Source: Rhodobacteraceae bacterium NBU2976 (GTDB taxonomy: Bacteria; Pseudomonadota; Alphaproteobacteria; Rhodobacterales; Rhodobacteraceae). From it: DNA of 64,000 bases. This document shows, in pieces, positions 48,500 through 64,000 of the stretch. How positions within the stretch are numbered: the first letter of the stretch is position 1; each line of letters begins with the position of its first letter. The stretch spans positions 186,001 through 250,000 of the forward strand of contig JALPRQ010000001.1 of assembly GCA_023630215.1 (NCBI GenBank). Reading direction: 5' to 3'. The notes below the pieces were generated by a model. That model ran no database searches and was not told where the DNA came from. It was given only the letters and a program-made list of their open reading frames with translations. The position numbers and the translations under genes are program-made.

Positions 48500-49980
48500 A
48501 ACGGCGCTGGACACCGCACCTCGCCAGCGTTCTGGCGCTGGTGTTGGTGCTGGTTATGGTGTTGCCATTTGCCGGGCTGTTCCTGTTCAAATTCTTTGCC
48601 AGCCAGTTGGTTCAGCAGACCGAGGAATCCCTTCAAGGTCAGGCGGTAGTGCTGGCGGCCGAATTTGCCGCGCTATATTCGGATGGCGAGGTTCCGCATG
48701 CGGATGAGCCGTTATTTCCGTCCATATCGCTGGCGAACGATCCCATCCTCCCCCCGCGCGAGGACGGAGTTCCCGCCGCGATGCCAAACGGGGTTTATGC
48801 CGAAATTGGGGGCATCCTGACCAAAGTGTCCGAGGCCGCGCAGGCGCAAACCTTGGTGGGCTACCGAATTCTCGATGGCAACGGCGTGGTCATCGGCGGG
48901 TCGGCCGAGATCGGCCTGTCCCTTGCCCATGTGCCCGAAGTGGCGGCAGCCCTGACAGGTGTCCCCACATCCGTTGCCCGTGTTCGGGTGCGCGAAAATC
49001 CGGAACCGTTTATCTATGCGCTTAGTCGGGGTACGCGGGTGCGAATATTTGTGGCGCACCCAGTGATTGTCGATGATCAGGTGGTCGGCGCGATTTACCT
49101 GTCGCGTACGCCCAACCACGTGTTCCGGTTCTTTTATGCCGAACTGCCCAGCGTAATCCGATCTGCCCTGTTCGTGCTGCTGGGCGCGTTGCTGATCGGA
49201 TTTCTGTTCTGGCGGTTTGTGACACGCCCCATCAACCGACTGGTCACCCGCACACATGAAATCGGCCAAGGGGTGCGCGTGGCGGATGACCATACCCATT
49301 ATGGAACGCGCGAGATTGAAACGCTGGCGCACAGTTTCCAGACCATGGCGACACGATTGCAAAAGCGGCAGGACACGATTGAAACCTTTACCGCCCATGT
49401 GACCCATGAACTGAAATCTCCGCTTTCATCCGTGCAGGGCGCGGCAGAACTGTTGCTGGACCCGGATATGACATTGGACGATGCGCAAAGGCGGCGGTTT
49501 TTGGAAAATATCCAAAGCGACACAAAACGTATGGCGGAACTTCTGGAATCTGTCCGTGAACTGGCTCGCGCCAAACAACCCAAGTTCGAAGGGGAAACAA
49601 CGCTGGACTCTGTTCTGCCTGACCTGCGCACAGATTTCCCGGAGTTAGAGATTGTCGCCGATCCGGCCACCCTTCCGATCAGCCGCGACGGGTTGATGCT
49701 GGCGTTACGACATCTGTTAGAAAATTCCGTTAAGCATGGCGCAACGCGGGTAACGATGACCCAGACCGGACAGGCGCTGGATGTCGCGGACAATGGAGAC
49801 GGGATTGCGGACGGCAACCTGACCAAAGTCACAGAACCTTTCTTCACCACCCGCCGAAGCGATGGCGGCACGGGAATGGGCCTGTCGATCGTGACATCGA
49901 TGATGGAAACAATCGGTGGGTCTGTTGATGTGCTGACACCCGAAAAAGGTGCAACCATTCGGCTGAATTTCCCCGCTTGA
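48487..49980 (+). CDS. Membrane sensor histidine kinase
   Basis: The 497-residue protein has a transmembrane segment near the start (about 13-38), a periplasmic sensor region of roughly 190 residues, a second segment (about 228-245), a HAMP linker (RPINRLVTRTHEIG), the phospho-acceptor H307 in HVTHELKSPLSSV, and an ATPase domain (HLLENSVKHG, DNGDGI, GGTGMGLSIV). It resembles CreC. The ligand is unknown; the upstream DUF4173 protein is a candidate partner. Confidence 0.9.
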   Translation: MPGVKRRWTPHLASVLALVLVLVMVLPFAGLFLFKFFASQLVQQTEESLQGQAVVLAAEFAALYSDGEVPHADEPLFPSISLANDPILPPREDGVPAAMPNGVYAEIGGILTKVSEAAQAQTLVGYRILDGNGVVIGGSAEIGLSLAHVPEVAAALTGVPTSVARVRVRENPEPFIYALSRGTRVRIFVAHPVIVDDQVVGAIYLSRTPNHVFRFFYAELPSVIRSALFVLLGALLIGFLFWRFVTRPINRLVTRTHEIGQGVRVADDHTHYGTREIETLAHSFQTMATRLQKRQDTIETFTAHVTHELKSPLSSVQGAAELLLDPDMTLDDAQRRRFLENIQSDTKRMAELLESVRELARAKQPKFEGETTLDSVLPDLRTDFPELEIVADPATLPISRDGLMLALRHLLENSVKHGATRVTMTQTGQALDVADNGDGIADGNLTKVTEPFFTTRRSDGGTGMGLSIVTSMMETIGGSVDVLTPEKGATIRLNFPA

Positions 49981-50016
49981 CGCCCTTGGCCATACCCCTT
50001 ACATACGCGGCACTTC

Positions 50017-50093
50017 GGCGGAGTAGCTCAGTTGGTTAGAGCAGAGGAATCATAATCCTTGTGTCGGGGGTTCAAATCCCTCCTCCGCTACCA
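50017..50093 (+). tRNA. tRNA-Met (CAT), elongator type
   Basis: The 77-base gene folds as a cloverleaf. The acceptor stem GGCGGAG pairs with CTCCGCT (first pair G-U), the D-loop is AGCTCAGTTGGTTAGAGC, the anticodon loop is ATCATAA within GAGGA/TCCTT, and the T-loop is GGGGGTTCAAATCCC. CCA is encoded. A lysidine-modified tRNA-Ile with CAT cannot be strictly excluded, but the body matches alphaproteobacterial elongator tRNA-Met. Confidence 0.92.
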
Positions 50094-50099
50094 CATCCC

Positions 50100-51026
50100 T
50101 TAGAAATTCACCTGATCGCCTCCCTTAAGGGACAGGATGTCGCGTGCTTCGTCCGGTGTCGCTACCTGAAGTCCCAGCCCTTCGATAATCGTTCTGGCTT
50201 TTTCCACTTGCTGCGCGTTGGATTCGGCCAGTTTGCCCCGTGCGATCCAGATACTGTCCTCTAACCCCACGCGAATATTCGCGCCCATCGCCAAAGCTTG
50301 GGTCGCAATACGAAACTGGTTGGCGCCTGCCCCCAAAACCGACCAGCGAAAATCATCACCAAACAACCGATCTGCCGTGCGTTTCATATGCATCACGTCC
50401 TCGGGGTGGGTACCGATACCACCCAGCAGTCCAAACACCGACTGCACAAAGAATGGCGGTTTCACCAACCCTCGCTCTGCAAAATGCGCAAGATTATAAA
50501 GATGCGAGATATCGTAACATTCAAATTCAAAGCGCGTGCCGTTGCCGTAACAGGTCTCCAGAACATATTCGATATCCTTGTAGGAATTGCGGAACACAAG
50601 ATCACGTGACCCTTCCAGATGCTCACGTTCCCATGCGAAATTGAATTCTTTGTATTTACGAAGCAACGGGAAGAACCCAAAGTTCATCGAACCCATATTC
50701 AAAGACGCAACCTCGGGCTGATAATGTGCCGCGGGTTTGGCGCGTTCCTCGACCGTCATATAAGGCGATCCACCGGTGGTGATATTCACAACCGCGTTCG
50801 TCGCCTGTTTGATACGGGGCAGAAAGCCTGCGAAGGCTTCGGGCGACTGGTCCGGTTTGCCGGTTTCCGGGTCGCGCGCATGCAAGTGGATAATCGCGGC
50901 TCCGGCCTCGGCGGCTGCGATGGCGCTATGTGCGATTTCATCCGGCGTGATTGGCAAAAACGGCGTCATGGTTGGGGTATGGATTGCCCCGGTTACTGCG
51001 CAGGAAATGATAACCTTGTCAGACAT
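50100..51026 (-). CDS. BKACE family beta-keto acid cleavage enzyme
   Basis: The 308-residue protein belongs to the DUF849/BKACE family, whose type member is 3-keto-5-aminohexanoate cleavage enzyme. It shows the zinc and substrate motifs ISCAVTGAIHTPTM, AAIIHLHARDPETGKPDQ, VNITTGGSPYM and the C-terminal ANIRVGLEDSIW. These enzymes condense a beta-keto acid with acetyl-CoA and split it into acetoacetate and a new CoA ester. It is last in the operon with the SDR and the MetF-like gene. Its keto-acid substrate in this pathway is not evident. Confidence 0.85.
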   Translation of the reverse strand: MSDKVIISCAVTGAIHTPTMTPFLPITPDEIAHSAIAAAEAGAAIIHLHARDPETGKPDQSPEAFAGFLPRIKQATNAVVNITTGGSPYMTVEERAKPAAHYQPEVASLNMGSMNFGFFPLLRKYKEFNFAWEREHLEGSRDLVFRNSYKDIEYVLETCYGNGTRFEFECYDISHLYNLAHFAERGLVKPPFFVQSVFGLLGGIGTHPEDVMHMKRTADRLFGDDFRWSVLGAGANQFRIATQALAMGANIRVGLEDSIWIARGKLAESNAQQVEKARTIIEGLGLQVATPDEARDILSLKGGDQVNF

Positions 51027-51034
51027 TTACCCTC

Positions 51035-51823
51035 CTAAAGCGATTCCAGATTACCATCGACCGGGATCGACTGCCCCGAAATATTCCGCCCCACGTCCGA
51101 GATCAGAAACGCAATCATATCAGCGACATCCTGGGGCGGCGTCATCCGCTTCAGCGATATCCGATTGACATACTCTGCGGTCATCTCTGCATGGCTGACG
51201 CCAGTCTGTTTGGCCCGCGCGGCAATCACCGACTCAATTCGGGGTCCCTCGATCACACCGGGCAGGATCGCATTGACACGGATGTTCGAGGGGCCAAGTT
51301 CCTTGGCAAGGCTTTCAGTCAACCCGATCACCCCCCATTTCGCTGCGGCATACGGCGTTCGAAACGCATACCCAAACCGCCCGGCGGCCGAGGACAGCCC
51401 AACAATCGCCCCACCTCCAGCCGCTTTGATCAATGGCACAGCATGGTGGGCACACAGATATTGCCCAGTCAGGCAGACATCGACGCACCGCCGCCAGTCG
51501 TCTGGTTGAATATCCTCTATCGCGGCGGTTGGTCCTGCAATGCCGGCATTGTTCACCAACGCATCAAGCCCAGCCATCTTGTTGGCAATATCCTTGAAAA
51601 ATCCGGAAACCTGCTGATCGTTTGACACATCGGTAACGGTAGCGACCTCGGTATCCAGCTCACGTGCGGCCTTGTCCAACGCCACCGAATCTACATCGAA
51701 AATCGCCAAACGCGCACCTTGTGCCTTTAGCACACGGGCAATCTCCAAGCCGATCCCGCTGGCGCCCGCACTGATGGCGATACGTTTGCCGTCGATCCCC
51801 GGCAATTTCATATTGTGCGACAT
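51035..51823 (-). CDS. Short-chain dehydrogenase/reductase
   Basis: The 262-residue protein has the cofactor motif AGASGIG, the acidic Asp of IFDVDS (NAD preference), NNAGIAG, a catalytic Ser in VGLSSAAG and YAAAK. GGAGGAG lies five to six bases before the ATG at 51823. It lies between the MetF-like and BKACE genes in one operon. The substrate is probably a hydroxy- or oxo-intermediate of the aromatic pathway. Confidence 0.78.
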   Translation of the reverse strand: MSHNMKLPGIDGKRIAISAGASGIGLEIARVLKAQGARLAIFDVDSVALDKAARELDTEVATVTDVSNDQQVSGFFKDIANKMAGLDALVNNAGIAGPTAAIEDIQPDDWRRCVDVCLTGQYLCAHHAVPLIKAAGGGAIVGLSSAAGRFGYAFRTPYAAAKWGVIGLTESLAKELGPSNIRVNAILPGVIEGPRIESVIAARAKQTGVSHAEMTAEYVNRISLKRMTPPQDVADMIAFLISDVGRNISGQSIPVDGNLESL

Positions 51824-51896
51824 CGCGACTCCTCCCAAGGATCACGATGATCCAAAGCTCACCACGCGGCAAGCTCTGATTAAATCCGATTTGGAA

Positions 51897-52817
51897 TTAC
51901 CCGTTAGCGGGTTTCTGATCCGTATTATCCAGAACAAAATTCGCGTTGGTTTTGATCCCGCCAAGCGGGAAAAAATGGGCCTTGGCGATCAGACTGTCGG
52001 GGTTTTCCGCCTTGTGCGCGGCGAATTCGTTCAACACCTCGGTCGGTTCAAAGGGCAGCATCAGCTTGGTCACGTCCTTGGCGCGGCGTGTCAAAACCCG
52101 CAGCGACGGCCCCACACCACACGCCATAGCGAATTTGATCAGGGTTTGCAGCTTGGCCGGTCCCGCGATTCCGACATGAATCGGCATCGTAACGCCCATA
52201 TCCTGCAAACGGTTAGCCCAGGCGATCACCGGTTCGGATTCGAATGCGAATTGTGTGGCAATCGCCATCTCGGCGTCAGTCTTTTCGGAAAAAGCCTGTT
52301 TCCACATCACGGCCTCGTCCACCAGTTTGGTACCGCCTTGGGGGTCAATATCCTTGTTGCCTTCCGGATGCCCGGCAACATGCAGGCGCTGGAATCCGTA
52401 TTTGTCAAACAGACCAGTTTCCATCAGTTGCATCGAAGACTCAAAGTCGCCATGTGGGCTGGCAACACCACCTGCCAGCAGCAGTGCCTGATCGACGGCG
52501 GCCTCATCACGGTAGCGTTGGATCCACGTCTCCAGCGTCGCGGTATCCTTGATAATACGCGCCGGGAAATGCGGCATGACGGGAAATCCATCTTCGTGCA
52601 GGCGCTTGGCGGTTGCCACCATGTCATCAATGGGAGTTCCATCGATATGCGCGATATAGACGCGGGTTCCCGCGGGGAGGAGCGCGCGGAAATCCTCGAC
52701 CTTCTCGGCCGTGCGTGGCATGACTTCGATTGAAAACCCGTCAACGAACTTGCCGAACGCAACATCATCGGCTGTGTCAGCTTTCTTTTTTCTGGCTGCA
52801 AAGTCCAACAATGCCAT
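51897..52817 (-). CDS. MetF-like methylenetetrahydrofolate reductase
   Basis: The 306-residue protein fits the MetF TIM-barrel family, with SIEVMPRTAEKVEDF near the N-terminus, LLLAGGVASPHGDF and LHVAGHPEGNKD. It interconverts 5-methyl- and 5,10-methylene-tetrahydrofolate with FAD. Beside a LigM-type O-demethylase it would oxidise the methyl-tetrahydrofolate that demethylation makes, as in lignin-degrading sphingomonads. Two copies of ATGTATACAT lie just upstream, so it is probably the first gene of its operon. Confidence 0.82.
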   Translation of the reverse strand: MALLDFAARKKKADTADDVAFGKFVDGFSIEVMPRTAEKVEDFRALLPAGTRVYIAHIDGTPIDDMVATAKRLHEDGFPVMPHFPARIIKDTATLETWIQRYRDEAAVDQALLLAGGVASPHGDFESSMQLMETGLFDKYGFQRLHVAGHPEGNKDIDPQGGTKLVDEAVMWKQAFSEKTDAEMAIATQFAFESEPVIAWANRLQDMGVTMPIHVGIAGPAKLQTLIKFAMACGVGPSLRVLTRRAKDVTKLMLPFEPTEVLNEFAAHKAENPDSLIAKAHFFPLGGIKTNANFVLDNTDQKPANG

Positions 52818-52838
52818 CGAAGTCTCCCTTCTGCGTCA

Positions 52839-52848
52839 ATGTATACAT
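52839..52848. promoter_or_regulatory. ATGTATACAT operator, copy 1
   Basis: A perfect ten-base palindrome 22 bases upstream of the MetF-like start codon. Together with copy 2 (52 bases away, five helical turns) it probably controls the metF-SDR-BKACE operon through the GntR regulator at 61650. Confidence 0.7.
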
Positions 52849-52890
52849 GAATAGTTTTATACTGGATTCCTGTCCAATAAAAACTTGGTT

Positions 52891-52900
52891 ATGTATACAT
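52891..52900. promoter_or_regulatory. ATGTATACAT operator, copy 2
   Basis: A second perfect palindrome in the AT-rich 156-base gap between the MetF-like gene and the DUF1932 gene. Its centre is 52 bases from copy 1, which would place bound dimers on the same DNA face. Confidence 0.7.
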
Positions 52901-52973
52901 GTATTCTATATCAATTGTGTCTATTCCACTAGAACGAAGGCGACACTTCGCCTTTCACCAACGCCATCCTGGA

Positions 52974-53825
52974 TTATTTCAAACGGCGCCTCAGGACGTC
53001 TTGGATATCCTCGGGATTTGGGGCATTCGTGTTGGCCATTGCGTCTTGCACCTCGGCCACAGCCGCCGCAAGTGGCCCGATCAAGCCCAGTTCTGATATT
53101 GTCGCGGCGCTTTCCCGCATTTCCGCCGCGCGGCGTTTACCATGTCGGATCGTGCGTTCAAACTGGTAGACCGGCAACCGATCCCAATCGAGGCCCGGGA
53201 AGCTGTCTCGCAGCGATGTCACGATATCATCATAACAGCCGGATGCCTCTGCGGCCAACAGGGTTTCGACCGTGATTGCTTCCAACCCTTTCACAAACAA
53301 AGAACGGACCATTTTGATCGCAGTCGCCTGTCCGGGTTCTGCCCCGATCATTCGGAAATCGAAGCCCAACGCGGTCAGGGATGTGGCAATCTCCGCAGCC
53401 ATTTCCCCTGCAATCAGGGTCGGTGTTGCATGGCCACGTGGAATGACCGGAGCCATCACCGCCATATCAATGTAATGCGCGCCTTTGGCTGTTACCAACT
53501 CCGCCGTCGCCTTCTTGCGGCCAGGCGAGACCGAATTGATGTCGATATAGACCTGTCCTTGCATAATGTGTTTCGCAATACTTTCGGCGGCCAGCAGGCT
53601 CTGGTCGGCGTTCACGGCCGAGATGATCCAGTCGGCACGCCCGAACAGTTCAGGCCGGATGGCGGCCACGTTTTCGGTGACCATCACGTCGCGCATGGTA
53701 TCATTGGGCGCGTCCAGCAGACGGTCCCAAGCGGTGATCTTGAGGTTAGGCTGGTGCACGCGCAGAGTACGGGCAAACATCTGCCCTGCCTCACCAAAAC
53801 CCAAGAATTCAATGCTGTCAGGCAT
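52974..53825 (-). CDS. DUF1932-type NAD(P)-dependent dehydrogenase
   Basis: The 283-residue protein has an N-terminal Rossmann fold (IEFLGFGEAGQMFARTL), the hydroxyacid-dehydrogenase substrate loop DINSVSPGRKKATAE, the catalytic-lysine region GQATAIKMVRSLF and a helical C-terminal domain like DUF1932 proteins. It should oxidise or reduce a beta-hydroxy acid. It overlaps galD by eight bases. GGGAGG precedes the ATG at 53825. Its place among gal genes suggests a side reaction or an alternative exit for 4-oxalomesaconate-type intermediates. Confidence 0.75.
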   Translation of the reverse strand: MPDSIEFLGFGEAGQMFARTLRVHQPNLKITAWDRLLDAPNDTMRDVMVTENVAAIRPELFGRADWIISAVNADQSLLAAESIAKHIMQGQVYIDINSVSPGRKKATAELVTAKGAHYIDMAVMAPVIPRGHATPTLIAGEMAAEIATSLTALGFDFRMIGAEPGQATAIKMVRSLFVKGLEAITVETLLAAEASGCYDDIVTSLRDSFPGLDWDRLPVYQFERTIRHGKRRAAEMRESAATISELGLIGPLAAAVAEVQDAMANTNAPNPEDIQDVLRRRLK

Positions 53826-54867
53826 AGACCTCCCCATCCATCAACTTGCGTGCGGTGCGCAGGACCCCGGCTTTGACAACCTCGCCATTGTCCAGCGTCG
53901 CAATCACGGTGAATTCTCCGGTCGGATGTTCGATGGAGAGCGACAACGGGTTTCCGCCGGGGATGTTGGCGATCTTTGCGGCAGGGCCATCAGGCAGCAG
54001 GCAGGCGGTGCCAACGCTGACCGCACCAAGCACGCCAATCGCCTTGTGACATCTATGAGGAATAAAGGTACGCGTAGAAATTGCGCCCTTCGCTGCCGCG
54101 CTGACGAGCGACATTTTTGGAACAGATTTATTCCTAACATCGCCGAGGTTCATCATCGGACCCGCCTGCAGCCGGATCGCCTCCAGCCGCGTTTTCAGCT
54201 CGGCGTTTTCATCCAGCTCTACCGGGGTTTCACGCCCCGTCAGCCCGAAATCCGACGCTGACAGGATTACGCAGGGCATGCCATTGTCGATCAGCGTGAC
54301 CTCGACGCCGTTAATCTGATCGACCGCATTGCCCGTTGGCAACAAAGCTCCGCAGGAGGAGCCGGCAGTATCCTCGAAGACAATCGGGATAGGCGCGGCA
54401 GTCCCGGGGACTCCGTCGATTTGCGCATTTCCATCATAACGCACTGTCCCACCGGGCGTCTCGACTGTCGCCACAGCGATCTGTCCCGTGTTCTCCATGA
54501 AAATCCGAATGTCGGTCACATCACCTTTCGGCGATATCAACCCACGCTCGATCGCGAACGGCCCAACGCCCGCCAGAATATTTCCGCAATTCTGCATATC
54601 CGTAACCGTCGGTTGATCAACGAAAACCTGTAGAAACAGGTAATCCACATCGACACCTTCCCGCGCCGACTTCTGCACAACCGCAACTTTTGAGGTTAGC
54701 GGATCAGCCCCACCCATCCCGTCAATCTGACGCGGATCCGGCGACCCCATGATCCGCAACAGCAGCGCATCGCGCGCAATCGGGTCGGTGGGCAGATCGT
54801 CCGCCAGAAAATACCCCCCCTTCGAGGTCCCGCCGCGCATCCACATGCACGGCACGCCATCAGACAT
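53818..54867 (-). CDS. galD: 4-oxalomesaconate tautomerase (GalD/PrpF family)
   Basis: The 349-residue protein is a PrpF-family isomerase with the start [16 protein letters not shown], the paired catalytic cysteine regions [14 protein letters not shown] and [11 protein letters not shown], and [13 protein letters not shown] near the end. GalD of pseudomonads converts the keto and enol tautomers of 4-oxalomesaconate, and LigU is a close relative. It overlaps galC by eight bases. The assignment to GalD rather than another PrpF relative rests on the galB and galC neighbours. Confidence 0.82.
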
Positions 54868-55531
54868 ATTTCAGCCCCTTTTCGGCCAGACGCGGACGCA
54901 TGTCATAGATATCGAGGCCTAGCTCACCCGACGCCAACCGCTGGCGTTTTGCTTCCTCGGCATCTAGCCTCGCTTGTGTTTTTTCCATCACTGATTCCGC
55001 GGTTTCACGCGGGACAACGCAAACGCCGTCATCGTCAGCAACGATAATATCGCCCGGATTGACCAAAGCCCCCGCACAGATGATCGGCACGTTTACTGAC
55101 CCCAACGTCTCCTTCACCGTGCCTTGTGCTGACACCGCGGTTGACCAGACCGCAAAGCCCATTGCGCGCAGGTCCTTCGTGTCCCGAACCCCCGCATCAA
55201 TCACCAGCGCCCGGCATCCCCGCGCCATCGCCGAGGTTGCCAGCAAGTCCCCGAAATAGCCCATGTCACAGGGCGCCGTCGGGGCGAGGACCATGATGTC
55301 CCCCTCCTGCAGCTGTTCAATCGCCACATGGATCATCCAGTTGTCGCCCGGTGGAGCCGAGATCGTCACCGCCGACCCCGCCATGCCGAAATCCTGCTGG
55401 ATTGGCCGCATGTTGGAGGTCATCAGACCTGTGCGGCCCTGCGCCTCGTGCACTGTGGCTACACCTGCCGCACCCATCCGTTTGATGATCGAAGGATCGG
55501 CGCGTTCGATATTTTGGACAACAACGCTCAT
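54860..55531 (-). CDS. galC: 4-carboxy-4-hydroxy-2-oxoadipate aldolase
   Basis: The 223-residue protein is of the RraA-like class II aldolase type (GalC/LigK/ProA). It has [34 protein letters not shown], the metal and substrate motif [12 protein letters not shown], and [16 protein letters not shown]. It splits 4-carboxy-4-hydroxy-2-oxoadipate into pyruvate and oxaloacetate, the last step of gallate and protocatechuate meta-cleavage. The ATG at 55531 overlaps galB (ATGA); an upstream extension to 55690 looks non-coding. Confidence 0.88.
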
Positions 55532-56256
55532 AACTCGTCCACCGTGCGCGGAAAGACGGACTGGAATCCCTCGGCATATTTGCAATCGCGCCCGCCGGAC
55601 TGCCCGCCGGAGTTGCGTTTGAAATGGTTCGCGCGGTTCTGGGCAACACGGGTGTAATAGTCCCACAGATGCTCTTGCCCTAGCATACATTCAATCGCGG
55701 CGCGCTTCTTGTCCCAGACCGGGGTGATGTCCAGAAACGTGTCGGGTTTCCATTCCATCTGCTCGGTCTGATGGGGTTCGAATAGATAAAGTTGCGGTGC
55801 GCCCAGCACCTTTTGTCCCGGATTGTGCCCCCACGCTTGTGCCATCATCCGTGTCGTCAGGGCAAAGTCGGTCGTGTACATATGGTCGGTGTTATACGGG
55901 TCCCATTTCGAATGGGACATCATAAAGGACGGCTGCACGGCGCGGATCACGTCGACCATCCGGTCCTGTGTCTCGCGGCCCAAGTCCAACGGATAATCCC
56001 CAACGTCGAAGAACTGGATATCATGGACATCGAGCGCCTTGGCGGCATTCTCTGCCTCCTTCCGGCGTTCGGTTTTGACCTTTTCCAGCGTCATGCCGTC
56101 CTGTTTCCACAGCTTGGCGCTTTCGCCGCGCTCGCCATAGGACAGACAGACGACCGTCACCTCATAACCAAGCGACTGGTGAAGGGCGATTGCGCCGCCA
56201 CAACGCCAGACGAAGTCAGCGGAGTGTGCAGAAATGATAAGGGCGGTTTTGGTCAT
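55528..56256 (-). CDS. galB: 4-oxalomesaconate hydratase (GalB, PIG-L type)
   Basis: The 242-residue protein has the PIG-L/LmbE fold with zinc-site residues H11 and D14 in [13 protein letters not shown] and a later histidine in [12 protein letters not shown]. Pseudomonas GalB is a PIG-L protein that hydrates 4-oxalomesaconate, unlike the LigJ type in sphingomonads. The tail [20 protein letters not shown] is a long polar loop. The overlap with galC and the gap of only four bases to the dioxygenase gene support the pathway assignment. Confidence 0.85.
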
Positions 56257-56260
56257 GGTC

Positions 56261-57220
56261 TCAGTCCCGTTTAACAGGTGGGGTTCCGTGCGTGTGGAAG
56301 GTCTCGATCGTTTTCAAGCCCCAGGCTTGGCCTTTTTTACGATCTGCTTCGGTCCAGACAACCGGTTCCCATGTTGGGTCTAAAATCAGGCGCGCCCCGG
56401 CGTTTGCCAATTCGATCCGGTTGCCCGCCGGCTCCCACGCATAAAGGAAGAACGACCCTTGGATCGCATGCTTATGCGGACCCGTTTCGATATGCACACC
56501 GTTCTCCAGATAGATGTCGGCGGCCCGCAATATATCCTCGCGCGTGTCGGTGGCATAGGTGACGTGGTGCAGACGGCCATTGCCGCCGCCACGTTCTTCG
56601 GAACAGACAAGATCGTAGGTTTTGTTGTTGCAACTGAACCAGCATCCACCCATCCGACCGTTATCGAGCTGAATATATTCGGTCACCTTGTTGCCCAGAC
56701 AGGTATCGACGAAGCGTTTGAATTCGCTGACATCCTCGCCCAGCAGATTGACGTGGTCGATCCGGCGCGGACTGATCCCCTGCGCGTGATAGCGGGAGGA
56801 CAGGTTTTTCAAGGCCGAGGCATCTTCGGGCGGGGCGTCATATTTCACCGTATCCCAATAAAGCTCGAACACATGGCCGAACGGGTCCTCGAACCGGAAG
56901 GCGCGGCCGTGCCCCATATCCCCATCAGTCCATCCCAGAACCTTGTATTCCGACGCCTCAATCGCCGCGACCCGGCGCTCCAACGCCTCGGGCGAGGAGA
57001 CGCGATACGCAATATGGCCAACACCGGTGCGGTCCGACCGGGTCAGCTTCATCGAATGAAACTCGTAATCATCCCACGCCCGCAAATAGGCGCTGTCGCC
57101 GTCAATGGCAGAGCATTTCAACCCGTAGATACGGGTGAAGAAGTCGAGGCTTTCATCGAACTTGTCTGTGAAAACTTCGACATGGCCCAGATGGGCAAGG
57201 TCATGGCAAGGTTCAGTCAT
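56261..57220 (-). CDS. VOC-type extradiol dioxygenase
   Basis: The 319-residue protein has two vicinal-oxygen-chelate modules, as in catechol 2,3-dioxygenase. Iron ligands of the second module are H156 (RIDHVNLL), H219 (LHHVTYAT) and E270 (GNRIELANA). The acid-base H251 and Y260 occur in HKHAIQGSFFLYAWEP. It should open a catechol-type ring next to the diol with Fe(II) and O2. By position it takes the place of gallate dioxygenase, which in known gallate pathways is of the unrelated LigB type. The true substrate (gallate, 3-O-methylgallate, protocatechuate or other) is not settled. Confidence 0.85.
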   Translation of the reverse strand: MTEPCHDLAHLGHVEVFTDKFDESLDFFTRIYGLKCSAIDGDSAYLRAWDDYEFHSMKLTRSDRTGVGHIAYRVSSPEALERRVAAIEASEYKVLGWTDGDMGHGRAFRFEDPFGHVFELYWDTVKYDAPPEDASALKNLSSRYHAQGISPRRIDHVNLLGEDVSEFKRFVDTCLGNKVTEYIQLDNGRMGGCWFSCNNKTYDLVCSEERGGGNGRLHHVTYATDTREDILRAADIYLENGVHIETGPHKHAIQGSFFLYAWEPAGNRIELANAGARLILDPTWEPVVWTEADRKKGQAWGLKTIETFHTHGTPPVKRD

Positions 57221-57229
57221 ATCAACCCC

Positions 57230-58534
57230 CTAGTCAAACATCGTATTTGGCAGGATCAAAGTGATCTGCGGGAAGGCAATCAGGATCGCCAATGCAACGA
57301 TCATCATCAGCCAGAAGGGCAAGACCCCACGGAAAATCGTGCCGAGGTCCACATTCTTTGCGACAGATTTCACGATAAAAACGTTGATCCCGACAGGGGG
57401 TGAGATCAGCCCCATTTCTAGCGTCAGAACCACCAGAACCCCAAACCAGATCGGGTCGATCCCATATTGCAAAACGATAGGAAAGAAGATCGGGATGGTC
57501 AGGACCAGCATGGCGAATCCTTCCAAAAAGCAGCCCAGCACCAGATAGATCAGCAGCATCAGGATCAGGACACCCAATGTCGACAGGTTCAATGCCTCGA
57601 ACATTTGACCAACGGCTAGCGGGATATCGGATAGGGCCAGAAATGGGTTGATCATATGGGCCGCGATCAGGATCAGCATGACCGTTGCGGTGGTGACAAC
57701 ACTGTCTTTTGCAGCATACCAAAGTTGCATCGGTTTGATCGTGCGTGTGACCAATCCGATAAGAATGACTGCCCCGGCGCCCACTGCCGCGGCCTCGACC
57801 GGGGAAAACAAGCCCCCATATATACCGCCAATGGTAAGCAGAATAATCCCGACAATCGGGCCGGCACCGACAAGTGCACGAAATTTCTGAGACCTCGTTG
57901 TCTTGGGGCCAGCTGGGCCAAGTTCGGGCTTTACCCAACACATGACAGTAATCGCGATGACGAACAAGAACAGCAAAAGGATACCGGGCAACACCCCCGC
58001 CAGAAACAGGCGACCAATGGATTGTTCCGTCAAAATCGCATAGATCACGAACCCCGTTGAGGGTGGGATCAGGATACCCAAGGTCCCGCCCGCAGCGACA
58101 ACACCAGTCGACAGGCGCGAGTCGTATTTATACCGATCCATCTCGCCCAAGGCGACCTTGCCCATGGTCAGGGCAGAGGCAACCGACGATCCGGACAGTG
58201 CGGCGAACCCGCCACACCCGATAACGGTGGCCGAGGCCAACCCACCGCGCACGGATCCGATAATCGCATAGGCAGCATCATAGAGCTGACGGCTCATCCC
58301 CGTGGTAGAGGCGACGTTGCCCATCAAAATAAACAAGGGAATAACCACCAGTTCCGGGGACGATCCCAGCGTGAACGCCTCGGACGACAACAGGCCCATC
58401 GCTGAATTGAACCCGTTCAGAATCCAAGTCCCGATAAAGCCCACAAAGAACATCGCAAACGCGACCGGGATGCGGATCAGAAGCATGATCAGCAGGATGA
58501 TTATCCCGATCAACCCGATCAAAGACGCGCTCAT
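57230..58534 (-). CDS. dctM: TRAP transporter large permease (DctM)
   Basis: The 434-residue protein has the DctM pattern of about twelve hydrophobic segments: IPVAFAMFFVGFIGTW, TGMSRQLYDAAYAIIGSVRG, GGTLGILIPPSTGFVIYAI and GLISPPVGINVFI. It forms the Na+-driven transport channel with DctQ and receives substrate from DctP. Its start overlaps the dctQ stop (ATGA), and the dioxygenase gene follows ten bases after its stop, linking uptake with ring cleavage. Confidence 0.93.
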   Translation of the reverse strand: MSASLIGLIGIIILLIMLLIRIPVAFAMFFVGFIGTWILNGFNSAMGLLSSEAFTLGSSPELVVIPLFILMGNVASTTGMSRQLYDAAYAIIGSVRGGLASATVIGCGGFAALSGSSVASALTMGKVALGEMDRYKYDSRLSTGVVAAGGTLGILIPPSTGFVIYAILTEQSIGRLFLAGVLPGILLLFLFVIAITVMCWVKPELGPAGPKTTRSQKFRALVGAGPIVGIILLTIGGIYGGLFSPVEAAAVGAGAVILIGLVTRTIKPMQLWYAAKDSVVTTATVMLILIAAHMINPFLALSDIPLAVGQMFEALNLSTLGVLILMLLIYLVLGCFLEGFAMLVLTIPIFFPIVLQYGIDPIWFGVLVVLTLEMGLISPPVGINVFIVKSVAKNVDLGTIFRGVLPFWLMMIVALAILIAFPQITLILPNTMFD

Positions 58535-59046
58535 GACATAAAATCCCGTTCGCCGCGGACATCTCGCGTCCCCGAGGCCAGTTCAATACTACGCAACAGC
58601 ATCCCCAGAGAGGTGATGATCGCGAAAACAATCAGGATGACCCTGAACCAAGTCATTGGCAGGTTCAAAAGGTTTGTGGAATCCGGCATGTTGAAGCGCA
58701 TATTGATCGCCACAACCTTATAGACCGCCCACGCGAGCATCACGAAAATCACCGCCCCCATCAGCGCCGAGAGCGCGTCGATCATGCGGTTGAGTCTTCT
58801 GGGAAATTTGCGTTCCAGCAGGTCAACCGCGATATGCCCGCCCTGACGATCACACAGCGCCATCGCGCCAAACACGATCAAGATCATCGTCATGGTGATC
58901 AGGTCTTGCGAGCCATAGAGCGGGTAGCCGAATGAGCGGCCTATGACATCCACCAAGATGATCAGCATCTCGACAATCAGGCCCAGTGCACCAACAAAAG
59001 CGGACAGGCTGATCAGCCTGTCCGCGATTTTACGCACGATTTCCAT
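58531..59046 (-). CDS. dctQ: TRAP transporter small permease (DctQ)
   Basis: The 171-residue protein has four transmembrane segments and the DctQ core VDVIGRSFGYPLYGSQDLITM with CDRQGGHIAVDLLERKFP. It lies between dctP and dctM with overlapping or near-overlapping codons, the normal order for this transporter. Confidence 0.92.
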   Translation of the reverse strand: MEIVRKIADRLISLSAFVGALGLIVEMLIILVDVIGRSFGYPLYGSQDLITMTMILIVFGAMALCDRQGGHIAVDLLERKFPRRLNRMIDALSALMGAVIFVMLAWAVYKVVAINMRFNMPDSTNLLNLPMTWFRVILIVFAIITSLGMLLRSIELASGTRDVRGERDFMS

Positions 59047-59055
59047 GCTGGCGGC

Positions 59056-60030
59056 TTATTCAGCCGTCATTGCGGCAAGAGCAGCTTCGCCACCGACTGC
59101 GGTGACATAAGCGTTCGTCACTGGCATCACCAAATCTGCAAATGCCTGTGCTTCTTCAGGTGTCAGATCAACAAACGTGTTGTCACCTGTTGCGCGGGCC
59201 TTGGCAACACCATCGTCAGATGTCGCAAACCAAGCGACCTCGGCGCTTTCCGATACAACTGGACGTGCGTCCAGAATGGCCTGCTGCTGATCCGCGGGCA
59301 ACGAGTTGAACTTGTCTGCATTCATCACCGCATAGAAGGTCAGATTGCCAAGCGGTGCGCCAAACGTATAGCTGTCCGCAACCTCGTCCAGTTTGAAGTC
59401 GTTCAGTGTGGATGATCCGGTGAATACACCGTCGATCAGACCGGTCTGAAGTGCGTTATAGACTTGGTTGATTGGCATCTGTACCGGGGTTGCCCCCAAT
59501 GCGGTTGCCACTTCGGCTGCGGTTGCCCCAGCCACACGGATTTTCAGGCCTTGCAGGTCGGCAGGCGTGCGGATCACATGACCTTTCATGATCATCACAT
59601 TTGGTTCGGAAATCCAGATAGCGACCGGAACAGTGCCGGGGAATTCCTCGGCCAGGTGTTCATCATAGGCGGCCCAGATATTGTCATATCCATGCGTGCC
59701 GTCGTCAATCACGCCCGGCAATTCTGCGATCATGGTTTTCTGGAACTGCGAAGATGTATATCCCGGCAGGCCCCAAGCCATGTCGGCAACACCCTGAACC
59801 ACGCGAACATATTGTTCCACGGGGCCAGCGCCCAATTCGCCGCCAAGATAGCCGCGAACGGTCAGTTCGCCACCTGTGGCGTCTGACAGAACTTCGTTCA
59901 GTTTTTCGATGACGGATGCAGTGACCGTATGTGGCGCCGGTGTGAAGGAGGCGAATTTCAGCTCCTCGGCCCAGCTTGCGGTCGCGGTGGTTGCTACCAA
60001 AGCGGCAGCGGCAAGTGCAGTAAATTTCAT
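59056..60030 (-). CDS. dctP: TRAP transporter substrate-binding protein (DctP)
   Basis: The 324-residue protein has a signal peptide (MKFTALAAAALVATTATASWA) and the DctP features FTPAPHTVTASVIEKL, RVAGATAAEVATALG (the carboxylate-binding arginine) and PMPINQVYNALQTGLIDGV. It should capture an organic acid, probably the aromatic substrate of this cluster, in the periplasm. GGGAGG precedes the ATG, and a hairpin lies 48 bases upstream. Confidence 0.92.
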   Translation of the reverse strand: MKFTALAAAALVATTATASWAEELKFASFTPAPHTVTASVIEKLNEVLSDATGGELTVRGYLGGELGAGPVEQYVRVVQGVADMAWGLPGYTSSQFQKTMIAELPGVIDDGTHGYDNIWAAYDEHLAEEFPGTVPVAIWISEPNVMIMKGHVIRTPADLQGLKIRVAGATAAEVATALGATPVQMPINQVYNALQTGLIDGVFTGSSTLNDFKLDEVADSYTFGAPLGNLTFYAVMNADKFNSLPADQQQAILDARPVVSESAEVAWFATSDDGVAKARATGDNTFVDLTPEEAQAFADLVMPVTNAYVTAVGGEAALAAMTAE

Positions 60031-60077
60031 GTCGGTCCTCCCAAAGACTTAACATTACACCTTTGCGGTGTTTTTAC

Positions 60078-60106
60078 GTTGGAGGCGAGAGATTCCCGCC
60101 ACCAAC
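60078..60106 (-). other. Intercistronic hairpin between ligM and dctP
   Basis: On the minus-strand transcript GTTGG-T-GGCG pairs with CGCC-T-CCAAC around a nine-base loop, nine pairs with one internal mismatch. No T-run follows, so it is not a classical terminator. Hairpins in this place often protect or set apart the highly expressed binding-protein message. Confidence 0.5.
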
Positions 60107-60123
60107 AATCTTATCCTAGCCAA

Positions 60124-61533
60124 CTAGGTGCGCGTGCGCCAGCTATCGGCATAATTTTCACGGGCTTCCTGTGAATAGGGGGTTGGGGAAACGCGGACGC
60201 GGATATCGGCCTGCTTATGTGGCTCGGTCGAGGTTTTCTGCGTTGTTTCCGGCTCACCCCATTTCAGGGTCAGGATGTCGCCTTCCTGAACGTTGACATC
60301 AACAACACCCAGCGACAACACGCACCGTTCATTCCAGCTGTAGCCATTGAACATGGACATACCGACCATCTGGCCTGCTTCGTTAACAATCATGTCAGCG
60401 GACGAAGATGCATAGTTCGGCTGCGGGAAGTCGATCCATTTGTAGGGGGTTCCCTGCTCAAAGCCCGATGCGATGACTTTCATCACATCATCACGGTTCC
60501 ATTCGAACGTAACTTTCTTGCGCTTTGGACCTTCGGCTTTGATTTTCTCGAGCGCGGCCTTGCCGACGAAATTGTCTTTCTTCCAGCCGATATAGAAATC
60601 GTAGCCCAGCTCGAACGGGTTCACGTAATAGTCTTCGATATTGTCGGACACAAACGATCCGCCAATCGCACCGGAAGCCTCATAGCTGTCCGGGCCAAGC
60701 CATTCGCGATATTCCTTCAGCATACCGTCTCCGGTATAGATGCCGGGCAATGGTGACGGGATCCAGCCGGATTCCAGCGTGTTGGTGGAATAGGCGCGGC
60801 TGCCGCATTGCACCAACTCGACCCCGGCGTCTTTGGCCGCTTCCATGATCGTCGAATGGATATAGTGCTTGTCCGCATAAGGACCCCAGATTTCCAGACC
60901 CGGTGCACCCGACATGCCGTGACGCAGGGCCTGCACCTTCTTGGAGCCCACGTTAATCCAGTCAACATGGAAGAATTTGATATCCGGGATCGGCCCGCCA
61001 TTCATTTTTTCAAAGATTGCCGGGGCCAGCGGTCCCTGAATCTGATAGCGATAATGCGTGCGCATCACGCGTTCGCCTTCGGGACGCGACGGCGAACGGG
61101 GGTCATGCGTGATCCGGACATTCCATTTGCCGGTGGCGGCGCAGAATTTCAGCCAGTTCGATGTTGGTGCGCGGCCCACCAGCACAAATTTATCTTCACG
61201 CTCGCGGAAGATAATGTGGTCGCCGATCACATGGCCATTAGGGGTGACCGGAACATAGTGTTTTGCCCGGTTCAGATCGAAATTCGCAAACGAGTTGATT
61301 CCGTGCTGCGACAGGAATTCCATCGCCTGCGGGCCTTCGACGATCAATTCGTCCATATGGTGTGACTGATCAAACAGAACGGCGCCGTTGCGCCAAGCGC
61401 TTTGTTCATTGCGCCAATTCTGGAATTCCGGTGCAACCACCGGGTAAACATACATGCCGATTTTGGAATTCCGCAGAACATCCACGATGTTGCCGGAGTC
61501 CTTGATGATATCCTCTAGGCTTAGAACAGCCAT
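60124..61533 (-). CDS. ligM: Tetrahydrofolate-dependent aromatic O-demethylase (LigM/DesA type)
   Basis: The 469-residue protein belongs to the GcvT-fold family and has the length of LigM (about 471) rather than GcvT or DmdA (about 365). It contains GAVLFDQSHHMDELIVEG, HYRYQIQGPLAPAIFEKM, ESGWIPSPLPGIYTG and a barrel C-terminus with GMSMFNGYSWNERCVLSLG. Y30, Q56, R121 and Y248 fall close to the substrate residues I remember for LigM (Y31, Q57, R122, Y247), which needs an alignment to confirm. It would move the methoxyl methyl of vanillate, syringate or 3-O-methylgallate to tetrahydrofolate. GGGAGGA precedes the ATG, with ATGTATACAT upstream. Confidence 0.8.
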   Translation of the reverse strand: MAVLSLEDIIKDSGNIVDVLRNSKIGMYVYPVVAPEFQNWRNEQSAWRNGAVLFDQSHHMDELIVEGPQAMEFLSQHGINSFANFDLNRAKHYVPVTPNGHVIGDHIIFREREDKFVLVGRAPTSNWLKFCAATGKWNVRITHDPRSPSRPEGERVMRTHYRYQIQGPLAPAIFEKMNGGPIPDIKFFHVDWINVGSKKVQALRHGMSGAPGLEIWGPYADKHYIHSTIMEAAKDAGVELVQCGSRAYSTNTLESGWIPSPLPGIYTGDGMLKEYREWLGPDSYEASGAIGGSFVSDNIEDYYVNPFELGYDFYIGWKKDNFVGKAALEKIKAEGPKRKKVTFEWNRDDVMKVIASGFEQGTPYKWIDFPQPNYASSSADMIVNEAGQMVGMSMFNGYSWNERCVLSLGVVDVNVQEGDILTLKWGEPETTQKTSTEPHKQADIRVRVSPTPYSQEARENYADSWRTRT

Positions 61534-61554
61534 GGTTTCCTCCCTGTCAATGGT

Positions 61555-61564
61555 ATGTATACAT
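61555..61564. promoter_or_regulatory. ATGTATACAT operator, copy 3
   Basis: A perfect palindrome 22 bases upstream of the ligM start codon, the same distance as copy 1 from the MetF-like start. It would place a repressor over the transcription start or leader. Confidence 0.72.
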
Positions 61565-61628
61565 GATTTGCCGGAAACAGGGCAAAATGCAAGTTGTTTT
61601 CAACGGAAACGTCCGTGAAAGCAAATTT

Positions 61629-61638
61629 ATGTATGCAT
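61629..61638. promoter_or_regulatory. ATGTATGCAT operator variant, copy 4
   Basis: One base differs from the palindrome. It lies 74 bases (about seven turns) from copy 3 in the same ligM promoter region, so it could be a weaker auxiliary site. Confidence 0.5.
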
Positions 61639-61649
61639 TGAGGGGGGTG

Positions 61650-62384
61650 TCAGTCTTTGACCAGCGCGAGCGAAGGCAATTTTTCGATCAGATCCGTCTG
61701 ATCATTGAGGACATATTCCAGATTACCGCGGGCGATTCTTGCGTGTTCCCGTGCGATGGCCTCGGCCCGTGCCCCTTCACGTCGCTCAATGGCGCTGACC
61801 AACATGCGATGTTGATCCTGCGCAATCACAAGTGACCGTTTGAACGTATTGATGCCAGCCTTGTCAGGCAGGAATGCCGAAGGTGATGCAAATGGCAGGG
61901 ACTTGGCGCGGTTCAATTCGCGGATGATCAGATCGCTTTCCGAAAGGTTGGCCAATTCAGTATGAAAATCTGCGTTCAATTCCGAATATTCGTCAAATTT
62001 GACATCATCAGGGCCCATCCCAACACAGTCATCCAGCTTGGCCACGATCGCCTTGATATCAACCAGTTTACTGCCCGCGACCCCTTTTTCCGCTGCCAAT
62101 CGCGCGGCAGTGCCTTCGAGAACACCGCGAATTTCAATGGCGTCGATCACGTCGCTGAACGTGAAAGATCGGACCATGAAACCGCCGCCGGCAACGCGTT
62201 CCAGCAACCCTTCCTCGGTCAGGCGCGACATGGCTTCGCGCACCGGCGTGCGAGAGATGGCCAGTTCCTCGGCCAGTGCCACTTCGTAAAGTCGCGTTCC
62301 ACCGGGAATATTCCCACTGATTATCCGCTGACGCAGATCAAACAGCGCACGTTTGGAATGAGTGTTTCCCGATGATACGGCCAT
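61650..62384 (-). CDS. GntR-family (FCD) transcriptional regulator
   Basis: The 244-residue protein has an N-terminal winged helix (LRQRIISGNIPGGTRLYEVA, ISRTPVREAMSRLTEEGLLE) and a C-terminal all-helical FCD ligand domain (IEIRGVLEGTAARLAAE, NADFHTELANLS, LVSAIERREGARAEAIAREH). FCD regulators usually bind carboxylic acids and repress catabolic genes until the ligand appears. It lies between ligM and the SDR/ligase genes. The ATGTATACAT palindromes around it, one 26 bases before its own start codon, are its likely sites, so autoregulation is expected. Confidence 0.9.
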   Translation of the reverse strand: MAVSSGNTHSKRALFDLRQRIISGNIPGGTRLYEVALAEELAISRTPVREAMSRLTEEGLLERVAGGGFMVRSFTFSDVIDAIEIRGVLEGTAARLAAEKGVAGSKLVDIKAIVAKLDDCVGMGPDDVKFDEYSELNADFHTELANLSESDLIIRELNRAKSLPFASPSAFLPDKAGINTFKRSLVIAQDQHRMLVSAIERREGARAEAIAREHARIARGNLEYVLNDQTDLIEKLPSLALVKD

Positions 62385-62409
62385 AGCTTCCCCTTTCGAC
62401 CCATAGGCA

Positions 62410-62419
62410 ATGTATACAT
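62410..62419. promoter_or_regulatory. ATGTATACAT operator, copy 5
   Basis: A perfect palindrome in the 60-base gap between the SDR stop and the GntR start, which points to autoregulation of the GntR gene. Confidence 0.7.
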
Positions 62420-62444
62420 GAAATCGCCGGGGCTTCGATAGGGT

Positions 62445-63206
62445 TTATTTCGGGCGCAATCGCGTTCCAGCATCAAGCCGGATGGTTTCCCCGTTCAAAT
62501 AGCGGTTGCCGATGCAGAACTGAACCGCGTCTGCATATTCAGACGGATCACCAAGGCGCTGGGGAAACAGGATTTCGGCCGCGAGGGCTTTTTGGGCCTC
62601 GTCCGGCAACGTGTAGAGCAGTGGCGTCAGGAATATTCCCGGTGCGATTGTATTGACCCGCACCCCAAACCGGGCGAATTCACGCGCTGCCGGAAGCATC
62701 ATCGACACAATCCCCCCTTTGGACGCGGCATAAGCGGCCTGACCGATCTGCCCTTCAAACGCGGCGACCGAGGCTGTGTTCACGATTACACCCCTCTCGC
62801 CGTCGGCCATCGGGTCCAGCAGGCTCATCCGATGCGCGGCAAGGCGCATGACATTGAACGTACCGATCAGATTGACATTGATGACCAGCTGGAACTGTTC
62901 CAGCGGCATAGGTCCATCGCGACCAACCACACGGCCCGCCGCGCCGATCCCGGCGCAATTGACAACGATCCGGGCATCGCCATGCGTTTCGTGGACCTGA
63001 TCAAGCGCTGCATTGACGGAATCGGCGGATGCCGCGTCGGTTTTTATTCCGATGCCACCGATCTCGGTCGCGACGGAATTGGCGCGGTCTTCGTTCAGAT
63101 CAAGGATCGCCACCTTGGCCCCAAGGTCGGCCAATTTTCGCGCTGCCGCCTCGCCCAGTCCGGATGCGCCGCCGGTGACAATTGCCGATATGTCATTAAA
63201 TTGCAT
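62445..63206 (-). CDS. SDR, 3-hydroxyacyl-CoA dehydrogenase-like
   Basis: The 253-residue protein has TGGASGLG, the acidic ILDLNED (NAD preference), NCAGIGAAG, a catalytic Ser in VNTASVAAFEG and YAASK. Its overall pattern, including RLAAHRMSLLDPMADGERGVIVN and FPQRLGDPSEYADAVQ, matches 17-beta-HSD10-like 3-hydroxyacyl-CoA dehydrogenases. It starts three bases after the stop of the acyl-CoA ligase gene, which fits side-chain shortening of a hydroxycinnamoyl-CoA. Confidence 0.8.
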   Translation of the reverse strand: MQFNDISAIVTGGASGLGEAAARKLADLGAKVAILDLNEDRANSVATEIGGIGIKTDAASADSVNAALDQVHETHGDARIVVNCAGIGAAGRVVGRDGPMPLEQFQLVINVNLIGTFNVMRLAAHRMSLLDPMADGERGVIVNTASVAAFEGQIGQAAYAASKGGIVSMMLPAAREFARFGVRVNTIAPGIFLTPLLYTLPDEAQKALAAEILFPQRLGDPSEYADAVQFCIGNRYLNGETIRLDAGTRLRPK

Positions 63207-63209
63207 GGC

Positions 63210-63998
63210 TTAATCTTTCTTTGCCAGAATTACACGCGGATCGTCCGAAAACAGGGTTTCCACAAGCGCGGCGCGATTTCGCAAGACCGCGCGCTGGTTG
63301 ACCGAGCCTTTGTCAGTGACCTCGCCCTGATCAAGGTCAAGCGGATCGACAAGGATGATCGCGCGGCGCACCGCCGTCGAAGAGCCGGGGGCAGTCGCCG
63401 AATATTTTGCAAGGTTCTCTGCGATATTTGCGCGAATGTTAGGATGCGCAAACAAGACGTCATCCTCAAGGGTCTCGCCCCCTTCGACCAGTCGTTCCAT
63501 CGCGGGGCGAAAGGGAACCAGCATCGCCCCCAGGGCATCACGCCCCTCGCCAGCGATGACGACGTCACGCGCCAAACCTGCCATCGCATCGGTCAACTTG
63601 GCGCGCAAAGGTCCCACACCAACCCACGTGCCGGTTGCAAGCTTGAAATTCTCGGCCGTGCGTCCATCGAAATAGAACCCTTTTGATGGGTCTTCGGGAT
63701 CAGCAAACCGCAACGCATCGCCAAGATTGTAGTAACCTTCTTCGTCAAATGCCTCTGCCGTCAGGGTGGGGTTGCGCCAATATCCCGGTGTAATGCTTGG
63801 CCCTTTCAAATGTGCCTCGAGCTTTCCATCAATTGGGACAAGCTTGAGCGTCAGCCCTTTGGACGGAATGCCGATATTCCCGGGAACGTCCTGAGGTTCT
63901 GTCGAAAAAAGGGCAAATGGCGCGGTTTCCGTGGAGCCAAGGCCCGTAGACAGAAAGACGCGCGTTCCCAGTGTTTCGACCGCCAGATTTTCAAGATC
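63210..63998 (-). CDS. Feruloyl-CoA synthase-like acyl-CoA ligase, C-terminal part
   Basis: The frame is open to the right edge of the window, giving the last 262 residues. It includes the adenylate-forming motif STGLGSTETAPFALFS, the KGPSITPGYWRNP turn, YYNLGDALRFADPEDPSKGF and the hinge region GRTAENFKLATGTWV. This set, especially GDALRF followed by a short insert, resembles feruloyl-CoA synthase. It would activate ferulate, sinapate or another hydroxycinnamate with ATP and CoA. The N-terminal half lies outside the window. It precedes the SDR in one operon. Confidence 0.78.
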   Translation of the reverse strand, partial: DLENLAVETLGTRVFLSTGLGSTETAPFALFSTEPQDVPGNIGIPSKGLTLKLVPIDGKLEAHLKGPSITPGYWRNPTLTAEAFDEEGYYNLGDALRFADPEDPSKGFYFDGRTAENFKLATGTWVGVGPLRAKLTDAMAGLARDVVIAGEGRDALGAMLVPFRPAMERLVEGGETLEDDVLFAHPNIRANIAENLAKYSATAPGSSTAVRRAIILVDPLDLDQGEVTDKGSVNQRAVLRNRAALVETLFSDDPRVILAKKD

Positions 63999-64000
63999 CC

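Follow-up and report, generated by a model that had tools for sequence, protein, structure and literature searches.

Which regulator reads the ten-base palindrome ATGTATACAT that recurs around ligM, metF and gntR in Rhodobacteraceae bacterium NBU2976, and how far does its control reach? The locus lies in the stretch of 64,000 nucleotides analysed here (contig JALPRQ010000001.1, positions 186,001 to 250,000; hereafter the window), for which a sequence-only reading had proposed that four perfect copies and one single-mismatch copy in three intergenic regions define a GntR regulon. Our analysis indicates that the GntR protein of the window very probably (probability about 0.9) represses gntR, ligM and metF through these sites, as a repressor of the type of Atu1419, a type that controls the degradation of lignin-like methoxy compounds. 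The computed results are the sites and how rare they are, their occurrence across relatives and the conservation of binding residues; binding, repression, the effector, the tetramer and looping are results obtained with Atu1419.

Palindrome copies in the window

The genes and sites concerned are as follows.

51897..52817, minus strand: divergent metF-like 5,10-methylenetetrahydrofolate reductase gene, named mainly from its recurrent place beside gntR and ligM and by analogy with Atu1418
52839..52848, no strand: operator ATGTATACAT, metF proximal site
52891..52900, no strand: operator ATGTATACAT, metF distal site, 52 bp from the proximal site
60124..61533, minus strand: ligM, tetrahydrofolate-dependent vanillate/3-O-methylgallate O-demethylase (NF047885, 645 bits, cut-off 580)
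61555..61564, no strand: operator ATGTATACAT, ligM proximal site
61629..61638, no strand: degenerate operator ATGTATGCAT with one mismatch, ligM distal site, 74 bp from the proximal site
61650..62384, minus strand: gntR, encoding a GntR-FCD repressor of 244 amino acids, a close relative of Atu1419 (PDB 6z74) by domains, homology and residues
62410..62419, no strand: operator ATGTATACAT ahead of gntR, candidate autoregulation site, 25 bp before the start

A scan of the window returned these four exact copies and no other, and the five sites lay where they had been described, all intergenic and ahead of metF, ligM and gntR, three genes on the minus strand. Both ligM (start 61533) and metF (start 52817) have 21 bp between the palindrome and the start codon, with the first palindrome base at -22 as had been claimed; for gntR (start 62384) the distance is 25 bp. 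The spacings within the two pairs amount to 4.95 and 7.05 turns of 10.5 bp, close to whole helical turns as also noted before. A second one-mismatch copy, ATGGATACAT at 47615, was absent from that account; it lies about 190 bp ahead of a response regulator at 47813 and reads as part of the apparent coding sequence of the preceding gene.

With up to one mismatch, six matches were found in the window against a shuffle mean of 0.51, and none of 100 shuffles reached six. Exact copies of the 159 other palindromes with A+T content equal to that of ATGTATACAT, which served as controls throughout, averaged 0.07 in the window, with a maximum of one. The shuffles and these composition-matched palindromes together rule out a chance palindrome. 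Because three of the 159 controls reach six or more matches at up to one mismatch, it is the exact copies that carry the statistical strength.

The window repressor and Atu1419

The window repressor carries a GntR winged helix–turn–helix domain (PF00392, 60 bits) and an FCD domain (PF07729, 50 bits), both above the cut-off. Its best solved relative (E value 1.3e-88) is the chain of PDB entries 6z74, 6za0, 6za3, 6za7 and 6zab, which the data statement of PMC7797058 assigns to Atu1419 of Agrobacterium fabrum. The ungapped alignment over residues 6-244 gave 147 identities in 239 positions (61.5%). With residue roles taken from the same paper (PMC7797058), the DNA-contact residues E34, R45, T46, R49 and G66, the zinc site N137, H141, H192 and H214, and the citrate/effector-site residues R86, Y133, S169, K175, R183 and N221 of Atu1419 were all identical in the window protein. 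Ten of 11 further interface residues were also identical. Of the 27 checked positions (DNA, zinc, citrate, dimer interface), 26 agree and R100K is the sole exception.

Atu1419 represses atu1418 (metF), itself and atu1420 (O-demethylase), and both gel shifts and crystals of the complex with DNA show it bound to the 10-mer 5'-ATGTATACAT-3' (PMC7797058). It is a tetramer that can loop DNA between two sites, and it also binds a degenerate second palindrome (PMC7797058). It is released from DNA by N5,N10-methylenetetrahydrofolate, and not by tetrahydrofolate or its methyl form, with the citrate of the structure regarded as a stand-in for the effector (PMC7797058). Close homology to a binder of exactly this 10-mer thus favours the GntR regulon that the palindromes had been taken to define. 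Since Atu1419 acts on metF, itself and ligM through the same 10-mer, the window system is, on the strength of this likeness, a further case of an already described system.

The two systems share the 10-bp palindrome, the target types, the checked DNA, zinc and effector-site residues, and paired sites with an exact and a degenerate copy at the demethylase gene. They differ in pair spacing, given as 190 and 109 for Atu1419 (PMC7797058) against 52 and 74 bp in the window; in the TRAP transporter and ring-cleavage genes that follow ligM in the window; and in the extra copies at fhs-folD, fdsGB and pcaH in the window genome.

Among other known systems, the ligM-metF-ligH operon of Sphingobium sp. 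SYK-6 is likewise under a single regulator, with LigH being a 10-formyl-tetrahydrofolate synthetase like fhs, according to PMC6888825; that regulator, DesR, is of MarR type, in contrast to the GntR-FCD protein of the window. VanR of Caulobacter and Acinetobacter is also a GntR repressor of vanillate O-demethylation, but it controls the Rieske enzyme VanAB, and its effector in Caulobacter is vanillate (PMC6888825). Atu1419 belongs to the VanR group of FCD GntR proteins. In the classical VanR regulon the regulator adjoins vanAB, whereas the window gntR adjoins ligM, and the Caulobacter VanR operator probably differs from ATGTATACAT.

Conservation of the site and the repressor in relatives

The related-locus sample comprised the best 80 repressor-relative loci from a scan of named genomes (1,506,934 bases); gene starts in these loci, and at sites outside the window, came from a simple codon-usage gene finder. 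The loci contained 70 exact copies of the palindrome against a control mean of 0.36 (maximum 4); with one mismatch allowed the count was 155, and the control mean 10.2 (maximum 54). Site and repressor occurred together in 38 of the 80 loci when an exact site was required and in 71 when one mismatch was allowed. Exact sites stood upstream of 24 of 40 ligM, 15 of 22 metF, 17 of 78 gntR and six of 30 vanA genes (control maxima 1, 0, 1 and 1), and sites at up to one mismatch upstream of 28, 16, 38 and 22 of these genes, respectively (control maxima 5, 2, 15 and 15). For half of the exact ligM sites (12 of 24), 21 to 29 bp separate the palindrome from the predicted start, as compared with 21 bp in the window. 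Three of 22 VOC-dioxygenase genes had a site, and none was found upstream of dctP (0/21), LigJ-like (0/15) or tautomerase (0/14) genes of the related loci, which fits the position of these genes inside operons.

Exact copies were present in 32 of the 48 whole genomes behind the related loci, 69 copies in total, and the backward pattern occurred 11 times. One family member of 3.8 Mb (G030) has only two, at ligM and gntR; G043 has one, ahead of gntR, and G037 has three, and none was found in G032, G017, G013 and G016.

In Rhizobium, Bradyrhizobium, Acidovorax and others, the repressor locus has a gene for the Rieske protein VanA (assigned by the VanA_C domain in L081 and L098, and by BLAST similarity elsewhere) and no ligM, with sites upstream of vanA. 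A tree of the repressors from 78 loci and the window (79 in all) contains 29 rows with vanA but without ligM; rows linked to ligM and those linked to vanA cluster, with nine and five label changes against 26.6 and 23.8 after shuffling. Flagged long branches make the number of ligM/vanA exchanges uncertain. The tree and the residue table leave out L090 and L099, from which the repressor protein was not recovered. Across the 78 aligned loci, positions 86, 133, 137, 141, 192, 214 and 221 are kept in all and positions 34, 45, 46 and 49 in all but L107, which has a gap there, while positions 66, 169, 175 and 183 vary. Many ligM-linked proteins have Lys/Arg at 175/183, and vanA-linked proteins have mostly Gln/Glu at 175 and varied residues at 183. 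These differences could reflect a different effector. A clean switch of effector between the LigM and the VanA lineages at these two positions was rejected, since Q and A occur there in some ligM-linked proteins as well.

Copies elsewhere in the genome

Many random copies across the genome, the outcome that had been named as refuting the regulon, did not appear: the whole genome (2,813,285 bases) contains seven exact copies, four of them in the window, and one copy of the backward pattern. The three outside the window stand before, at or just inside the starts of functionally linked genes. One lies 135 bp ahead of fhs (formate-tetrahydrofolate ligase), behind which comes folD; another covers the candidate fdsGB start codon, the next gene being fdsA (formate dehydrogenase alpha, 749 bits against a cut-off of 666); and the third lies about 10 bases inside pcaH (protocatechuate 3,4-dioxygenase beta), given the start placed in this analysis. 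Together, fhs-folD, fdsGB and pcaH are one-carbon (C1) and ring-cleavage steps downstream of LigM. No full-length PurU match was found in the window genome (best 28% over 123 residues). A further 24 places match with one mismatch, ten of which were inspected (seven in longer stretches, 47615, 61629, and 1415358 inside fdsGB); among these ten, only 61629 precedes an obvious pathway gene, and the other nine were rejected as further targets.

In relatives, sites within 250 bp upstream of purU, folD and fhs were counted in 80 regions of 28 genomes, using 30 of 37 purU matches, 30 of 38 folD matches and all 23 fhs matches, and excluding the purU loci L224, L233 and L234, which lie inside ligM clusters. 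Six sites at up to one mismatch were found, two of them exact, whereas the 159 controls averaged 0.22 (maximum 3) and gave no exact site. The test had been prompted by the two exact sites, and its fair part is therefore the four with one mismatch; alone, they still exceed the control maximum of three. Individual exact sites stand ahead of folD in Neorhizobium galegae, 30 bp ahead of purU in Pseudorhizobium endolithicum, and, in an Ahrensia metagenome-assembled genome, ahead of an operon with a LigB-like class III extradiol dioxygenase gene.

Three of 29 exact sites in ten relative genomes lie outside the gntR cluster, all in G067; one is at folD, and the sites L165 and L167 have no convincing target. 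In a further 38 whole genomes, 14 stretches with exact sites were inspected, and ligM, metF or gntR-ligM sites outside the cluster were seen in L193, L194, L197, L198 and L202. No convincing target was found for L191 (ferredoxin-like gene), L192, the second site of L196 (5895), L199, L200, L201, L203 (inside a gene) and L204, which were not counted as support. The L196 site at 5895, the second exact operator in an Ahrensia metagenome-assembled genome, precedes by 37 bp a gene for a large subunit of molybdopterin CO/aldehyde-dehydrogenase type; it also falls within the start predicted for a divergent gene.

Proposed mechanism and rival explanations

Considering these results, we propose the following scenario. 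Without methoxyaromatics, the repressor, a tetramer in Atu1419, would occupy the operators and block ligM, metF and its own gene, and could bridge paired sites. LigM would pass the methyl group of its substrate to tetrahydrofolate and MetF would oxidise it; 5,10-methylene-tetrahydrofolate would then rise, bind to the zinc-containing FCD domain and release the repressor. We infer both the binding by the window GntR and its effector from Atu1419. Through the operators at fhs-folD and at the start of fdsGB-fdsA, the repressor might also couple demethylation to the oxidation of the resulting C1 units. That repressor control extends to fhs-folD and fds has, in our judgement, about even odds. With the same balance of confidence, we put forward a wider scheme in which one folate-sensing repressor would govern the flow of methoxy carbon from ligM through metF, folD and fhs to formate dehydrogenase, a C1 intermediate inducing its own disposal. 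The operator would be placed on different steps (purU, folD, fhs, fds) according to lineage, and the same pair would also serve the chemically unrelated Rieske demethylase VanA.

Several observations weigh against this scenario. No exact site was found in 42 of the 80 related loci, and none at up to one mismatch in nine; exact copies were also absent from 16 of 38 whole genomes of one set and four of seven of another. A search for a consensus sigma-70 promoter overlapping an exact operator found none. As for the C1 genes, a site at up to one mismatch precedes fhs in one of 23 relatives and fds in none of six, and any such control would therefore be lineage-specific. Twelve genomes of the bacterium's own genus gave only distant GntR matches (best E value 2.3e-23). 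Furthermore, the palindrome at fdsGB shares bases with the candidate start codon and that at pcaH falls within the first codons, so that either copy could be due to chance; the backward control has one genome copy.

The regulon may accordingly be narrower, limited to gntR, ligM and metF, with the fhs-folD, fdsGB and pcaH copies being fortuitous. The single backward copy, the rarity of fhs and fds sites in relatives and the one copy inside coding sequence all agree with this view, but the three copies stand before, at or just inside the starts of genes processing LigM products, and sites upstream of purU, folD and fhs in relatives outnumber those of any control palindrome; we regard it as possible, though less likely than not. 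A change of inducer is another option: the same operators and repressor would respond, like classical VanR, to vanillate or a related aromatic substrate. VanA yields formaldehyde, not methyl-tetrahydrofolate, and the vanA-only rows of the tree, together with the sites upstream of vanA (22 of 30 genes at up to one mismatch, six exact, against control maxima of 15 and 1), suit an aromatic inducer. Vanillate is moreover the VanR effector in Caulobacter and Corynebacterium glutamicum, according to PMC6888825. This option appears unlikely, however, given that the window GntR keeps all checked citrate-contact residues including K175 and R183, and that methylene-tetrahydrofolate, rather than tetrahydrofolate or methyl-tetrahydrofolate, frees DNA from Atu1419 (PMC7797058).

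It is also conceivable that another GntR-family regulator of the genome reads the sites and the neighbouring gene is a bystander. Cores resembling TGTATACA are common among FCD regulators, and seven genome stretches, the window gene included, match the GntR protein at E values up to 1e-3. The joint occurrence of site and repressor type in 38 (exact) and 71 (up to one mismatch) of the 80 loci, and the binding of the very same 10-mer by the close relative Atu1419 (PMC7797058), make such a bystander highly improbable. Repression by the window GntR itself is hence the reading preferred here.

On that reading, a structurally solved repressor-operator pair is carried from Agrobacterium to many other bacteria and provides a ready interpretation of the window regulon. 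The regulon content, that is, the fhs-folD, fdsGB and pcaH copies, seems to be new; a C1 regulon of this kind was not recognised in a search of the open-access literature, with subscription papers mostly outside that search. If true, the C1 extension would explain how cells grown on methoxyaromatics avoid trapping folate as methyl-tetrahydrofolate, and would offer a methylene-tetrahydrofolate sensor with a defined 10-bp operator.

Helical phasing and other sequence signals

Helical phasing of paired sites is suggestive only; the pairs are non-independent. Among ten periods, 10.5 bp gave the highest resultant both for 35 pairs (0.637) and for 23 distinct distances (0.568); with just the 16 distinct distances of at most 140 bp it gave 0.536, and periods of 10.25 and 12 were higher. 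Off-phase distances include 24, 35, 36, 50 and 192. A weak promoter-like match (61653-61624, minus strand) runs across the degenerate copy at 61629. The sole match in an Rfam scan of 48000-64000 was a tRNA at 50017-50090.

Neighbouring genes

Two groups of genes lie behind ligM and metF.

50100..51838, minus strand: genes behind metF for an SDR dehydrogenase and a BKACE beta-keto acid cleavage enzyme
52974..60030, minus strand: co-directional genes behind ligM for a TRAP transporter (dctPQM), a VOC-type dioxygenase, LigJ-like and LigK-like proteins, 4-oxalomesaconate tautomerase and a DUF1932 dehydrogenase (dctPQM and LigK-like named from sequence reading alone)

No site at up to one mismatch was found in 52974..60030, and read-through from the ligM promoter is possible. 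From ligM through to the DUF1932 dehydrogenase the genes run in one direction at short intervals, and control by the ligM operator may therefore extend to uptake and ring cleavage. The SDR and BKACE genes may similarly be co-transcribed with metF. Among ten neighbouring proteins searched, none was VanA-like, and the demethylase beside gntR is LigM. The MetF-like protein scored only 25 bits with TIGR00676 (cut-off 294) and had no Pfam match at an E value of 0.001; it recurs next to gntR and ligM across orders despite its weak model scores, as a divergent reductase group.

The VOC-type extradiol dioxygenase (56261-57220) scored 296 bits to catechol 2,3-dioxygenase, below the cut-off of 320. Accompanied by the LigJ-like, LigK-like and 4-oxalomesaconate tautomerase genes, it stands in the place expected of an enzyme of LigAB/DesB type, and it recurs close to ligM in many related loci; gallate or protocatechuate may be the substrate of what would be an unrecognised ring-cleavage enzyme. 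The DUF1932/6-phosphogluconate-dehydrogenase-like protein (52974-53837) is tied to ring-cleavage genes in several relatives. Genes for an SDR and an AMP-binding enzyme (62445-63809) immediately precede gntR on its own strand, and some relatives also have them near gntR.

In two Pseudooceanicola genomes (L050 at 3863 and L051 at 3960; family searches on L050 only), the operator has a divergent gene for an AMP-binding acyl-CoA synthetase on one side and a gene for an enoyl-CoA hydratase on the other, an arrangement suggestive of control over hydroxycinnamate activation. In four further stretches (L052 at 18508, L053 at 18507, L059 at 17067 and L197 at 2988), an exact operator lies 115 to 206 bp from the start of a gene for a branched-chain-type ABC solute-binding protein, a candidate methoxyaromatic transporter; in L052, the operator is flanked on its other side by a divergent polyphosphate kinase gene.

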